Source: Isohypsibius dastychi (lineage: Eukaryota; Tardigrada; Eutardigrada; Parachela; Isohypsibiidae). From it: a stretch of DNA of 30,498 nucleotides. Positions 5,955 to 30,217 of the stretch are shown here, one piece after another. The first letter of the stretch is position 1. Each line of letters opens with the position of its first letter. A program made the translations under genes and the position numbers. The stretch covers positions 1 to 30,498 of the forward strand of contig JAQIWT010000161.1 of the NCBI GenBank assembly GCA_034696485.1, given 5' to 3'. A model generated the notes under the pieces. That model saw only the letters and a program-made list of their open reading frames with translations. It searched no databases and was not told where the DNA came from.

Positions 5955-6041
5955 AGTCTCCGCCAAAAAGAAGTCCTCACTTCGCCCTGTCCAATAACTG
6001 AGTGGGCAGGCCCAAGTGAGGACTTTTTTTTGGCAGAGACG
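5955..6041. repeat. Palindromic MITE, family B (87 bp)
   Basis: Inverted arms read TCTCCGCCAAAAAGAAGTCC on the left and TCTCTGCCAAAAAAAAGTCC on the right arm's other strand. TA flanks both ends (5953-5954 and 6042-6043). The loop (CGCCCTGTCCAATAACTGAG) matches the reverse complement of the loop at 25272-25358, so the two copies have the same length and opposite orientation. Confidence 0.8.
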
Positions 6042-6735
6042 TAAAATGTATAGCAAAAACCCAAGCCTGTGCAAGGTTTTGATCATGTGCACTTGTATGG
6101 CTGTTACCCGGGGAAATGTTTTTGTCCATGATTCCTCGTTATGCTGAATTGTTAATGAATGACTGTGGTGTGTGTTAACCAGGCCTGAATATGCCGATTA
6201 TCGATAATAAAAATTACAGTTATGATATTAATTCAACTGTTGAGTTTAAAACGAAATATAATAATGTTTGATTCAAGAACAATGTTAAATAATCATTAAT
6301 CACCAGTTCCTCAGTTATACAATCACTGAATCATTCAATGACCAAACTAATGAATTATTAAATGATCTGACATCACAACAAAAAAGTGGGCCACCCCCTC
6401 GACAACCGCCCGTCCTGTGCATTTAGCCTAACCCCCTAGTGCCCAATTATGAAGCTGCTTCTAATTCCCAAAAGCTATCTTTTCTTACTAAGAATATGAC
6501 GTCATGAGTTCGCTCATTTTGTGACGTCGTAAATGACGCTATGGCTCGAAAATGTGGACTTCCCTGCTATCGCTTGCTAAAATTTTGTACATTAACACAA
6601 CCCTTTGTTAAAGATACGAAGAAGGCACTGTGGGGGGGGGATTAATTATTGATCATCTGTTTGAATCACCATTCTTCATTTGAATCATTAGTCATCATCC
6701 ATCAGAGCTGTGGTGGAAGCTAATTGGTTATAAAT
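6042..6735. other. AT-rich spacer, no gene
   Basis: The 6200-6370 part is AT-rich with recurring TGAATCATT/AATGATTCA words. A run of nine G lies near 6632. No coding or RNA signal is supported. Confidence 0.4.
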
Positions 6736-24172: not shown

Positions 24173-25271
24173 CTGATCTTCGTGCCAAACGGACCAAATC
24201 CCAGGTTGCTGATTACGTTAAAAAAGCAATTGATAAAGTTCCCAAGACACTCCATATTCGAAATCTCTAGAGAACGGAACTGTCCAAAATATTGTTTTAA
24301 CTCTTAGATGACTGAGCGAGCCTTTTCGGCTCTACTCTTTGGCAACAAAATCGTCGCGCGCGTACCAAGGTGAAAGTAAAGATTTCCTTAAAACTCAGTG
24401 TCTGATTTCAGACAAAGTAACTTTTGTCTTTTGAATTTTCGATATCGGATGGTTGCTTAATTATCTTGGGCACAGAGCCGAAAGGGCTCTGTAAAATTTG
24501 GTCTTGCGTGATCTGCAATAACTTGGCCCTGAATTTGATGAAACAAATCTGAACGGTACAGTCTGTTCACAATCCAATTTTCTTCTCGACTAAAGCGTTT
24601 TTAGTATTTCTTGCGCAAAACGGCACCAACAAAGGTGATTCAAAAAGAGGCGATCGATCAAAGGTTTATTACGGGCAACTGACTATCGCTTGAAGCGGAC
24701 AGACCAAGCAACGGGTTGGGCACTGCCTCTCAATCGCTTTTTATATGACTGCCTATTGGAGGGCGCTTTTTATTGAGCCAGTAAGACCAGGTGGAGCCGA
24801 AAAGGCGCTGGTAAGTCACAACAGGAGCAGTGGATATTCTCTAATGCTCTTGGTCACAATCGGTCAAGATATCACACAGTTACTGAAGAGTTAAAGCAGC
24901 GAAACAACCGAAAGTGTAGCAGGTGATTTGAGAAGCTGGAGATACATGTACATGTATACGTAGGAACAGATAGGAGCGTTGTCTGTTGGAAGTGGCGCTG
25001 CGAACGCCAACGAGAACGAACCGGTGAATTCGGACAGTAAAATGAGAAATGACCACAAATTTCGTTCAAAATCAGTTTACAGATTTTATCAAGTGACGAT
25101 TTATTGGAGCATTTTCGGAAATCAAATCGCCCAACAAACCTTCAGTGACTTGATATCGTTCATTCATGCACCTGGGATGAAAAACAATATGTTGAAGTCA
25201 TTCTAAGATTGAATAGTGATTTCCTCAAAATAAAGTGCGTATTGGTAAGCATGGTCATAAATTCTCGGACA
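24173..25271. other. Non-coding stretch with GC hairpins
   Basis: A short frame SQVADYVKKAIDKVPKTL follows the MITE (24173-24270) without recognised homology. Hairpins sit at 24318-24332 (GAGCC/GGCTC, loop TTTTC) and 24472-24492 (ACAGAGCC/GGCTCTGT, loop GAAAG), and a weaker GCC-GAAAA-GGC is near 24795. Another palindrome, ATACATGTACATGTAT, lies at 24942-24957. No gene is supported. Confidence 0.4.
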
Positions 25272-25358
25272 CGTCTCCGCCAAAAAGAAGTCCTCACTTG
25301 GGCTTGCCCGCTCAGTCATTCGATAGGGCGAAATGAGGACTTCTTTTTGGCGGAGAAG
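25272..25358. repeat. Palindromic MITE, family B (87 bp)
   Basis: Ends read CGTCTCCGCCAAAAAGAAGT inwards on both arms with one end change (CTTCTCCGCC). TA follows the right end (25359-25360); the left flank is CA, probably a decayed TA. It is the closest relative of 5955-6041, in inverted orientation, and sits 67 bp from the Ginger-like element. Confidence 0.8.
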
Positions 25359-25425
25359 TACAAAGGATTCATCCGTCGCATTAAAGTCATCATTGTGAAA
25401 AACCAACAGGTAAGAAATGTGCCGG

Positions 25426-25610
25426 AAAATTTGTTACCCTATTGGCGTGTTACTCAGGGTAACAATGTTTAGCCAACAAATTCTTTGTTACCCAAAATGT
25501 GTTACCCTTCCTGATATGTATCCCCAAGTTCAATATAGCTTTCATGTGATCACCGGTCATCTCAACCTAGACTTTGACTCGACTTCAAGCTGAGCCTTCC
25601 ACGATGCATG
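25426..25610 (+). repeat. Left terminal inverted repeat
   Basis: The outer 83 bp (ending near 25508) carry GTTACC words in both directions and match the reverse complement of 28921-29006 closely. The inner part, CATGTGATCACCGGTCATCT at about 25543-25562, matches the right side at 28865-28900. Total paired length is about 180 bp with gaps. Confidence 0.7.
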
Positions 25611-26374
25611 AAAACTGTGGGGGCGGAATCAACCTGAAGTTTTTTAGACACATTGTTTCGAATACAAGATATTTCTTTGCTGTCGCACTTTTTGTCAGCC
25701 TGTTTGGGTTTAACACTTGTGGTAACGGACTTTGGGCAACAAATATTTCATTAGCAAACTGGTGTTAAACCTTCTTCACAATGCAGGTTAAGCCCGAGAA
25801 TGTCAGCATTTCTTACAGAGGAAACGAAGGTTAAGAGAGCAAACCGGTAATCATAATTCGTAATTGAATTGAAAAGGATTCAATTCCCCACTGACGTCTG
25901 CACCTAGAGCTCGTGTAAGTGGGTGGTCGGGTGGGCATGTCATAGACTACGTCACAGCTCCTTCTTCTTTAATGTTGCCGCTTTTGTTTACGTTTTGAAA
26001 CTTAGTGAAGGTAATTTTCTAGTGATACATTCCGGAATATTCATCCCTCGAGGCCACGTTGCAGCCTGTACCTGAACGAGTGTACAAAAAAGAACTGGAC
26101 CACGTTGCAATCCGGCTCTATTTGGCGAACCATACCCACATCTCGCGTTTGGGCGGTCCAGCATTTAAGTCACCGCGAAATATAGTTGCGAAACAAGCAA
26201 AATCCATGTTTCTCGAGAAGTAGAAATTGTTCGTCGTTCACGGGGGGAAAACCTGCGGTACCTTGAGGAAGACTCTGAGAGAGAAAAGCTTTTGCGTTCG
26301 ACTCATTGGTAAGTTCTTCTTAAAAGACACCATTTTTCACAGTGCAGGGTTTATTTGCAGCCAGTGGGGGCATA

Positions 26375-27048
26375 CACCATCCCCTGGTTATATGGTACAA
26401 GTTTGGCAGTCCCATATAGCGAGTTACAACAAATCCCATGAAGCGAGGGCTACTGTCGTCGTCGCCAAATTCGACAGGTGACCTCTCGATTTTTTGACCT
26501 TGTAGAAGGACAAATAGACCGTCCACCGAGTTTTATGTATGTTTAACTAGTTTCAGAATATATTTTAACCTGGAATCGAAAAACTGGTGTTGTCTCGATT
26601 TCGACTGCGGAGGCATGATTTCATCGGAAGTATCTTCCAGTGGTTTTCCATGAAATACGTAAGTAAGCCACTGAATAAGTATTTATTAAGTAAGAAAGAA
26701 GAAGAAAAACGCAAATTGGAGCAGATGATATCGATTCTTGTTCGGTTTTGATCAGTGGTGGATTAGGGAAGTTTTCAGTGGGGGTGGGGGGAGGGAGGTT
26801 CTGAAAATAAGAAATGCTCCGAAAATCTCCCCCCCCCCCCCCGCAAATCCACCACTGGTTTTGATATCACAACAAAACCAGTGATGGGCGCTGAGTCAAA
26901 ATTCTAGGGTGTTTGCGTCCCATGTAGCAAAAATCCCCTGTTTAGACTAAATTACGGACCCTCCGTCAGTTAGCTGCTATACGTCACATTTACGAAACGA
27001 TTTTGAAAGTCCCATATACCAAGAATCCCATATAACCAGGGGATGGTG
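26375..27048. mobile_element. TA-flanked inverted-repeat element in the transposase intron
   Basis: Ends CACCATCCCCTGGTTATATG and its exact inverse (27028-27048) give perfect 21-bp arms. TA lies directly outside both (26373-26374 and 27049-27050). Taking it out together with one TA leaves an intron of 72 bp, the same size class as the other introns of this gene (45-63 bp). No transposase frame is seen inside, so it is a non-autonomous Tc1/mariner-like element. Confidence 0.7.
26753..26857. mobile_element. hAT-type MITE with 8-bp target duplication
   Basis: Ends CAGTGGTGGATT and AATCCACCACTG are exact inverse 12-mers of hAT type. They are flanked by a perfect 8-bp repeat GTTTTGAT (26745-26752 and 26858-26865), the target size of hAT transposons. 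The interior is G-rich on the left and has a 14-base C run on the right, so it can fold back fully. It is nested inside 26375-27048. Confidence 0.9.
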
Positions 27049-28819
27049 TATTGCAGGAGACAAAATGCTGAAAAAAATTACCGAAGCTCACTACTGGCGA
27101 TCAGTGCGGGAAGACCTTGAAGATTTTGTGAGTCATACTGCTGTATTGTATTTGTGCACTGAACAACTGTGAATGGTTCCGCAGTTACGAAAATGTATGG
27201 TCTGTCAGCAACAGGGAAAACAGGTGCACAAGGTTTGCAAAACCTCGAAGCAGTTTCCTGTTTTGTCCGGTGTTTGGTCGGTCGTTGCAATTGACACAAT
27301 TGGACCTCCTCATGCAACTGCATAGGGGTATAGATGGTTGCTGGTTTTGGTAGACATACGATCAAGATGGGTTGAAGCGGTTGCCATGAAACAACGTGAT
27401 GCCCACACAGTTGCTGCTGCGCTGTATGAAGTTTATTGCCGCAACGGTTGCCCTGACCGAATATTGACTGATAACGGTGGAGAATTTGTCAACAACGTAA
27501 GAACCATTTCAGGATTTTAAGATTTCATGGTACAGTAACAGAAACATTGCGATTTGCATCTGAACCATTGCATGAACGAGCTGTTATGCCTTCGTCACAC
27601 AAGGACCTCAGCATACTGTCCACGAACGAATGGAATGTGTGAAAGAATGAATGGCACCGCTCAGAGGTAGACATTAATATTCAAAAACCATATCCATATC
27701 AGAAGAGTCAATGTTATTCAGTTTTCCAGACAGTTGCGGGTCAAGTTGGCTGAAAAAGCAGGTCACTGGAATCAGCATTCAAACGAGTGCCTCATGGAAA
27801 TCCGAAACCGTATCAGTCGACCGACCGGATACAAACCTCATCAGTTGTTTCACAAGTTCAAATTTCTGATGTGGCCTCCGACTGCCCTAAACGAGGAGGA
27901 TGTTCTCATGCCAATGATGCAGTATGACGCGGATGAAATTGACCGTATGATCGATGACGGCAACAGAGTGCTCATGGAAAAAATTCGGCGAAGTGGCTTG
28001 TTTGCTCCATCAGAAGGTGACCTCAAACATGAAAAAGGAACAAAACCTTAAAAAGAAATGCTTTGAAAAGCATCATATTGGAAAAGGCGAAGTTTTGAAA
28101 CCAGGTATTTTGCTCTAATTGTTTTCTCCGTATTGTCATGAAACCGACCATGATTGATCACTGGAGACCTCTTTTGGTTCCGAGACAGTCAACGTGGACA
28201 CAAGTTCACGTCTAGGGATTCAGCTGGATGGGTTGGTTTGGTGAAGTTGTACAAGGTCCGATCCAGTGACACTCAAGTGCAGTACGGAAAAGTGAAGTTG
28301 TATGTGAAGAACGAGAATTTGCGTACATGCGGTTTGCCAGTTTTCCGATGTGCTGCGCTACCGTGTTTTTTTTCAGACAATGCGCGAATATCTTCTGAAA
28401 TCACTGACGGATGGTCAATTCAAGGGATATTTTCCACTCACTGGATCTCGACCCGGTCGCATCATGCCACGTCGGCGAGAAACTGCTGCCATACAATGCT
28501 TTTGCCGCATGCCATTGATCCGCGGGTTGAAATCAGTGGTTGTCTGCGAATGTGGTCGTGCTGGATGCTGTCGCGTTTACCATCGGTCTTGTATCGGTCC
28601 TGTTGGATGAAGTCTCGAGAATCGGACATGCCAAATTGGCACACTCTCTGGGAAAATGAGAGAGTACGAAGCGATCAACACTAAAATTGACTGAAACAAA
28701 TCTCACAGTATTCTTTTGCATCTTCAGCACCTCGGCATGAGATTTCTAAAGTGCAGCCAGAAATGAATGTTGAGTACTGGAACGAACTTCCTCTAAAATT
28801 GCATGTCTTTTATCTGCCT

Positions 28820-29083
28820 TCACAGTCCTCATGTAGTCTAAAGGCTCAATATGAAGTGGCGGTGTAGGTTGAGATGACCGGTGGTCACATGAGGCTTATA
28901 GAGATCTCCAGAATCCGTTCCAATTGTAACAAAATTTTGTGTAACAAAAACTCTGTTGGTCAAACATCGTTACCCTGTGTTACAGGCCAACAAGGTAACA
29001 AATCTGCTGGCTACTGTGATTTTGAAACTTTGTTGGCCAATCATTGTTACTCTTGGTGACACGCCGATAGGGTAAAAAATAAG
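28820..29083 (-). repeat. Right terminal inverted repeat, outer unit duplicated
   Basis: The block 28865-29006 pairs with the whole left repeat. A second, outer copy of the terminal unit (29029-29083) follows, separated by about 22 bp, and is the one bordered by CCGG. So the right end has two tandem terminal units and the left end one. Confidence 0.65.
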
Positions 29084-29775
29084 CCGGCAGATTGGTCACC
29101 CTGTAGAATGTTACCCATATCATCATTTTTTGAATGACAAATCCTAAACAGATTTGGTCATGCCTCGCTTTATTTTTAACTAATCAGTATCCGATGTTAC
29201 ATGAATTTCTGACTTAACGAATGTTGTTTTCATCCGAAGTATGCACGAACGAAAGTCCAAAGACATGCTGATCCATTTCCGAAATTCTCAGTGAGAACGG
29301 TGTGAACGGTGTGAACGGTTTTTAGACTCCACGAATGAAGATATTAAACACTAATAGAAATACGCGGCTCCAACTTGGTTCAAATTTCTGAAAGTATTCG
29401 AAGCTCAGCGACTCGACGAGCGAATAGACCGGATCAGCTGCGCGAGTTCAGCTGATTCAGTCCAGTTTTAAGGTGACTGATTGGTCCAAACCGCGACTTG
29501 CAATGCCTGTATTATGGTGTGGGTCAGAGTCAAATGGAATGTCACGTGTGGAGGGGAAACTGCGGTGTTTATTTCGTCCCCCACCCCTTTCCGCGTTTGG
29601 TTTGCGATTGCGAATGCGGATCTGATGATATCAACCAACGTTGATTGAAAGGGTCTGAAAATAATCGATCCTCGTATCCAGATTGATTTCTTGGGCCAAC
29701 AGTCATCGACTCCGCGAAGATCTTGTGATGTTAAAAAGAAATCATTTTCGCATTTTGCTGGGATGTTTTTCTCGA
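29084..29775. other. No gene; short tandem repeat
   Basis: GGTGTGAACG is repeated about two and a half times at 29298-29320. Otherwise no coding or element signal is visible before the F-box gene. Confidence 0.4.
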
Positions 29776-30217
29776 ATGGGAAATGTCGAAACGGATGATG
29801 AGCTTGCTGTCACGGAACCCACACGAGATCTTCTCAACGTTAATCTATCGTACGTATTCGCATTTCTTTTGCTTGTGATGATTCAAATCCATCTGGCGTA
29901 GTGTTTAAGAGTGCTGCTTGCTTCGCAAATTCATCGCAGGCAGATGCTTGAATTCATTTCGCATTCTGTTATCCAGGACCATCAGCGATCTCCCACGAGA
30001 AGTCATGGAAATTATTTTCGAGAAACTTGATTTCGTCAACCGCAAAAAAATTGAACGGTAGTTCAGTTGAAAGAAGTTTTTGTGTCATCTTGACATTTGT
30101 CTGCTTTGTAGAATTTGCAAAGGTTGGATGCAGATCATTCGAGGAGCCAGAAAGTTTCGTACCCATCTTCGAATCGATCTTGCTTCGGACATCGTCCAGA
30201 TGATATGCTCAAGCTGA
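29776..30217 (+). CDS. F-box protein, three exons
   Basis: Exons 29776-29849, 29977-30057 and 30112-30217 join in phase through introns of 127 and 54 bp with GTACGT and GTAGTT donors. The product starts MGNVETDDELAVTEPTRDL and contains ISDLPREVMEIIFEKLD and RICKGWMQIIRGA, the LP-x-E-V..IF..L and C-K-x-W core of an F-box. F-box proteins hold substrates for SCF ubiquitin ligases by binding Skp1. The frame stops at TGA 30215-30217, but an overlapping frame shifted by one reads RPDDMLKLNGAALY and ends exactly at a strong GTAAGT donor (30236). The likely original gene therefore continued beyond, and a one-base frameshift between about 30180 and 30198 (or a sequence error) truncates it. Substrate-binding repeats are not visible in the window. 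Confidence 0.65.

Follow-up and report, generated by a model that had tools for sequence, protein, structure and literature searches.

A dead Ginger1-like DNA transposon in Isohypsibius dastychi whose PHD-like finger is probably the remnant of a longer tail

The window, a 30,498-bp stretch of the Isohypsibius dastychi genome (contig C161 of a 30.4-Mb assembly with 1,648 contigs), contains a decayed DNA transposon. The interval was translated in three frames, the genome was searched as DNA and as protein, and the locus was compared with the surroundings of its relatives, taken in stretches of at most 10 kb. The following features were located:

25418-25843, plus strand: left terminal-repeat region; inverted repeats with matches on C411, C1144 and C1501 and to the repeat ends of other copies
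26077-26308, plus strand: YPYY-like integrase exon in a decayed state, followed by a GT donor and interrupted by one stop and one frameshift
26372-27051, no strand assigned: nested MITE of 680 bp with 24-bp perfect inverted ends and an apparent TA duplication
27056-27130, plus strand: zinc-finger exon (GDKMLKKITEAHYWRSVREDLEDFV); E 2.6e-6 against the C1514 exon
27185-27499, plus strand: DDE exon 1 with the zinc-finger CxxC and two catalytic Asp; one in-frame TAG
about 27557-27667, plus strand: second DDE exon, carrying the catalytic Glu within NGMCERMNGT; E 2.4e-14
27728-28106, plus strand: post-DDE exon; a frameshift near 27980 splits it into two adjoining matches in different frames
28154-28324, plus strand: GPY/F-region exon; tblastn against C469/C1514, 62-63% identity, E 8e-24
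28325-28376, plus strand: junction, at the place of two Ulp1-like modules in relatives; ends with poly-T and a CAG acceptor
28377-28607, plus strand: last exon, a tail helix and a PHD-like finger with 6 of 8 ligands, terminated by a stop
28676-29091, plus strand: right terminal-repeat region of two 77-bp units, its outer end decayed

The exons of a spliced Gypsy-type integrase with a zinc finger and D-D-E, which an earlier note had recognised from the letters, were located; the gene is decayed. Their order is YPYY-like, zinc finger, DDE, post-DDE and GPY/F region. Positions 26077-26250 of the YPYY-like exon matched an exon of the relative C1514 by tblastn (E 3.3e-12); in the family this segment lies upstream of the zinc finger, and C471 has HP for YP. 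HHCC, the first Asp and the Glu are invariant in all four aligned relatives, and the second Asp in three, the exon of the fourth not being included. The suggested GPY-like region holds as far as the exon itself, which matches C469 and C1514. The GP residues, present in C254, C471 and C499, are replaced both in C1514 and in the window copy. The gene of the window copy is disabled by the in-frame TAG, by the stop and frameshift in the YPYY-like exon, by the frameshift near 27980 and by the MITE, which occupies the expected site of the second zinc-finger His. This MITE had not been mentioned before. It has matches on 21 other contigs in the DNA search of the genome. Stretches near 26754-26860 within it match elsewhere separately.

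Inverted repeats do enclose the element, as had been described. Three arm pairs were aligned, 25421-25498/28934-29011 (81% identity), 25409-25480/29029-29100 (79%) and 25527-25572/28862-28907 (80%), and the DNA search found these repeats on other contigs as well. The right repeat consists of two units 77 bp apart, and so do the repeats of C411, C1144 and C1501. The borders, which the earlier note had proposed to fix by aligning copies, lie near 25418 and 29091 by homology to the terminal repeat of other copies; the ends of the window copy itself are decayed. The left end reads TGTGCCGG, a decayed TGTAGCCGG, and the right end TCTGCCGG, both one base short of the ends of other copies (TGTAGCCGGCAAA...). 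TGTAG stands at both ends of C1514, C469, C344, C965, C1144 and C1027.

Outside these borders, 25107-25236 in the left flank and 29289-29167 in the right flank are homologous in inverted orientation (score 69; maximum of 200 shuffles, 47), and the same comparison with C1501 gave a score of 107 against a shuffle maximum of 42. Because of these inverted homologous flanks it is possible that the original repeat of the window copy was longer, or that the element inserted into a palindrome. The left flank also contains a short palindromic MITE (25271-25359) that occurs again at 5957-6042 of the window and on 8 other contigs; C1501 has the same left flank without it. Dispersed repeats lie on either side of the element (24297-24895, 29422-29514 and 29969-30181), each with at least 10 genome matches.

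CCGG at both edges had been taken for the target site. As a target duplication it was rejected: in every one of 24 ends it occupies bases 6-9 of the terminal repeat (TGTAGCCGGC...), and it is therefore part of the repeat. These ends were chosen by an exact pattern starting TGTAGCC, and decayed ends were thereby left out. In their flanks, position -4 is C in all 24, position -5 is A or G in 22, position -2 is C or T in 21, and position -3 is mostly G (16 ends, with A in another 7). The flank bases give a CpG-centred 6-bp target, nRCGYn, and symmetry is strongest around the -4/-3 step, where a 6-bp stagger would put it. When 23 flanks were scored for symmetry (C1027 counted once, its two flanks being identical), a duplication length of 6 bp scored highest (0.196), followed by 4 bp (0.142) and 12 bp (0.061), with a negative score for 5 bp. 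For a 4-bp duplication, position -1 would have to be G; 9 of the 23 flanks have it there, and no 4-bp flank match occurred in the six relatives computed. C1514 is flanked by GACGTG on both sides, a matching 6-bp duplication found in one of seven two-ended relatives; matching flanks were absent from C469, C344, C965, C1144 and C1027 (computed), from C764 (by eye) and from the window copy. The unmatched flanks in six of the seven are a real weakness of the 6-bp target claim; recombination or chimeric assembly could have caused them.

The reported lack of reverse transcriptase (RT) was confirmed, since no RT or RNaseH match was found in 25103-29413 of the window. Across the family none of 11 sequences (9 with integrase) gave such a match, whereas six of seven Gypsy controls from the same genome did, the exception being L030. 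The nine family integrases formed one group (support 99/97), separate from the 20 database integrases and the 7 Gypsy integrases of the same genome. Within it the window integrase grouped with C1514, C469 and C755 (100/97), and its place beside C1514 and C469 was weak (86/19). The tree had 36 rows with no Ginger1 reference among them; P0001, P0015 and P0023-P0025 were omitted by hand, and P0026-P0068 were found later. That the element is what is left of a Gypsy LTR retroelement, with the integrase alone kept, is very improbable: the best matches outside the genome are indeed Gypsy-type integrases, but inverted terminal repeats, introns, a separate integrase clade and the lack of RT and RNaseH across the family all argue against it. 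The earlier assignment to a Ginger-like DNA transposon was thus upheld. Protein-database searches listed 14, 10 and 43 proteins, among which none had Ulp1 or PHD by Pfam columns or names and none was recognisable as Ginger1; 10 of the 43 sequences were inspected, and the 43-protein search was limited to scoring the 7,998 candidates with the most words in common. One protein, P0030, is named Gypsy integrase-like 1 but has an RT domain.

A 6-bp target could also suggest a Polinton/Maverick or a GingerRoot/IS3EU element, both of which make 6-bp duplications (PMC10045372), and GingerRoot and IS3EU further resemble the family in their integrase-related transposase. We consider this assignment unlikely. 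Polinton, IS3EU and GingerRoot are described in the same source as being without HHCC, which is invariant in the four relatives aligned here, and GingerRoot and IS3EU as having mostly TA..TA ends; the ends of our family are TG...CA. In C1514 the longest gene-strand frames belong to the integrase/Ulp/finger gene and the other strand has no open frame above 136 residues, which also speaks against this assignment.

Ginger1 elements are described as having a Gypsy-like integrase with HHCC and DDE but no RT, YPYY before the zinc finger, GPY/F, and TGTNR-ended inverted repeats some 40-270 bp long. The family has several Ginger1 features but a different target, and we therefore call it Ginger1-like, not Ginger1. 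Ginger2/Tdd elements share TGTNR ends, HHCC, DDE and a preference for palindromic targets with the family, and differ by an AT-rich RTATAY target, duplications of 4-5 bp and the lack of YPYY and GPY/F, as described in PMC2836005. Imagin, a domesticated Ginger1 gene, has YPYY and HHCC and is Ginger1-derived like the family, but is a host gene with a dead DDE and without inverted repeats; the term PHD does not occur in the main text of the source (PMC12863088).

The earlier note had asked whether a PHD-like tail exists in other genomic copies. The same finger was found in seven of eight related integrase loci of this genome, each of which also has two Ulp1/SENP-like modules. The order integrase-UlpA-UlpB-finger was read in C1514, C469, C1525, C216 and C499. 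The sister elements C254 and C471 (L052, L054) have the order Ulp-finger-Ulp, compared with Ulp-Ulp-finger in the other five; the last Ulp module of C471 is weak (E 9.5e-6, 11 bits). No Ulp module or finger was found in the repeat-only stretches scanned of C411 and C1501. In C1514, an element of 7,514 bp, the joined exon pieces of the predicted gene model amount to about 1,370 residues.

The two modules match each other's profile (e.g. E 1.7e-13 in C1514) and therefore look like duplicates, and their catalytic His/Asp/Gln/Cys columns are invariant in both at four loci. Judged by single-sequence tests, the Ulp1 label is firm for C254 only, which alone passes the Pfam Ulp1 cut-off (26.3 vs. 20.7 bits). 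The modules of C1514, C469, C1525 and C499 stay below Pfam cut-offs, with weak scores for YopJ acetyltransferase, GtgE, C57 and C39 and not for Ulp1. Among PDB sequences UlpA came closer to GtgE (E 0.04-0.09) than to SENP5 (E 0.42), and the sole match of UlpB was an Ulp1-like protease (E 0.61). Fold ranking placed SENP or NEDD8 proteases as the best 16 of 45 PDB chains for UlpA, all at E >0.001 and with low TM-scores to the SENP and NEDD8 chains (0.18-0.36). The structure models (mean pLDDT 57.5 and 55.1) are too poor to settle the folds. An Ulp1-like match at C1043:7122-7463 lies within an open frame of 2,027 residues.

The PHD-like finger at the end of the window integrase proved to be present. 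A profile of the seven relatives' fingers, with the window excluded, picked out 28380-28592 in a scan of 66 frames, with a single-sequence E of 1.6e-6, and 28380-28607 aligns with all seven. The fingers of the eight loci, window included, have C-x-C-R-M-P, C-x4-C, His and Cys in common. The seven relatives hold the full C4HC3 ligand set with the final C-x2-C, whereas in the window copy a stop codon precedes the final Cys pair. No Pfam domain reached its cut-off for the finger. A profile of all eight had the Yng1 PHD finger as best of 12 PDB rows (E 0.0072); eight of the rows are Yng, PHF2, EBS or SHL proteins, and the rest include unrelated ones. In the fold ranking 16 of 19 chains were PHD fingers, mostly of ING type, all at E >0.001 with poor models. 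ING-type readers have a Trp directly before (F/Y)H; the residue at this place is not Trp in any of the eight aligned fingers.

The supposition that the finger is the single extra domain did not stand, as two Ulp modules accompany it in seven of eight loci. A PHD finger in a Ginger1 transposase is also already known. Table 1 of Bao et al. (2010, PMC2836005) already gives 'Ulp1, PHD' for Ginger1-9_HM of Hydra, and the same paper reports C-terminal Ulp1 or OTU for Ginger1. By its description there, Ginger1-9_HM resembles our family in its integrase-type transposase with C-terminal Ulp1 and PHD, its introns, its inverted repeats and its TGTNR ends. It differs in length (3,758 bp vs. 7,514 bp for C1514) and in its single listed Ulp1 against two modules here, while the Ginger1 group has 4-bp CCGG/CCGT targets against nRCGYn.

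In the window copy the GPY/F-region match ends at 28324 and the finger match starts at 28380, with just 55 bp in between, and a profile search found no Ulp module anywhere in the window. An AG acceptor stands at, or at most 10 bp before, the finger exon in all eight loci, the window included. Since the last exon starts at a matching splice site, both Ulp modules have most likely been deleted, and loss of the protease exons explains the short junction most simply. This reading is independent of the Ulp1 label. A genuine short variant, in which the window subfamily shed its proteases while active and used the finger alone, seems improbable to us. It would fit the finger exon, which retains six of eight ligands and its splice acceptor, and C755 of the same clade, which also has no Ulp modules; the copies seen included no other of the window type with an integrase for comparison. 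The loss of the final Cys pair to a stop and the stops, frameshifts and nested MITE of the integrase argue against it, as do C1514 and C469, which belong to the same clade and have both modules. Moreover, an Ulp1-like fragment interrupted by three stops lies on C411, a contig that has a window-type repeat, and no second copy with the window's short junction was found in the genome.

We therefore regard the window copy as, very probably, a dead Ginger1-like DNA transposon from which both protease parts were deleted. Its finger would then be a remnant of a longer tail of known design, not a replacement for the proteases, which corrects the earlier reading. Loss of the tail is not peculiar to this copy, because C755 (same integrase clade, 100/97) shows neither Ulp modules nor finger in 9.9 kb.

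In the fuller relatives the spliced gene would encode an integrase with a YPYY-like segment, HHCC, a DDE core and a GPY/F-like region, together with two Ulp1/SENP-like modules and a PHD-like finger. Such a transposase would bind the TGTAGCCGG... ends, excise the element and join it to a CpG-centred nRCGYn site, probably with a 6-bp stagger. The putative protease activity of the Ulp modules may facilitate the repair of DNA by way of SUMO or ubiquitin, in agreement with Bao et al. (PMC2836005), and the finger's putative partner would be a histone tail or another protein.

A doubtful but larger proposal is that the family is a distinct integrase-type lineage apart from Ginger1 and Ginger2, marked by CpG-centred hexamers with a 6-bp stagger and by an Ulp1-like module in two copies that adjoin or flank an ING-type PHD finger, some members having a second small PHD protein. 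The literature searched, with Repbase and most subscription papers outside it, yielded no description of paired Ulp modules or of a CpG-centred 6-bp target. If true, such a lineage would bring along its own complete set of SUMO and chromatin tools, by which insertion might be directed towards active, CpG-rich chromatin. Should the family be upheld, it would show that Ginger-like integrases can change their target from CCGG to a longer, CpG-centred site and that one transposase can bear two protease-like modules and a PHD finger; comparison of the two modules could then address a long-standing question, the reason for Ulp1 or OTU in Ginger transposases.

The second small PHD-type protein, of 77 residues, is encoded by C1514, C469, C344 and, in damaged form, C965 (L047:2124-2354, minus strand, and L042:2261-2491, plus strand), and was not found in the window or the other 11 loci tested. 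Its Pfam PHD match (E 0.0015) is below cut-off, and the C1 domain scores better. The 2.1-kb C344 copy keeps this protein, with no integrase in the protein-search listing. A COX1 search gave no match; rhodopsin-type receptor frames, which adjoin C254 and C344, point to an animal. The flanks of C1027 (L040), a 1.6-kb relative, are perfectly inverted over 34 bp, like an insertion in a palindrome.
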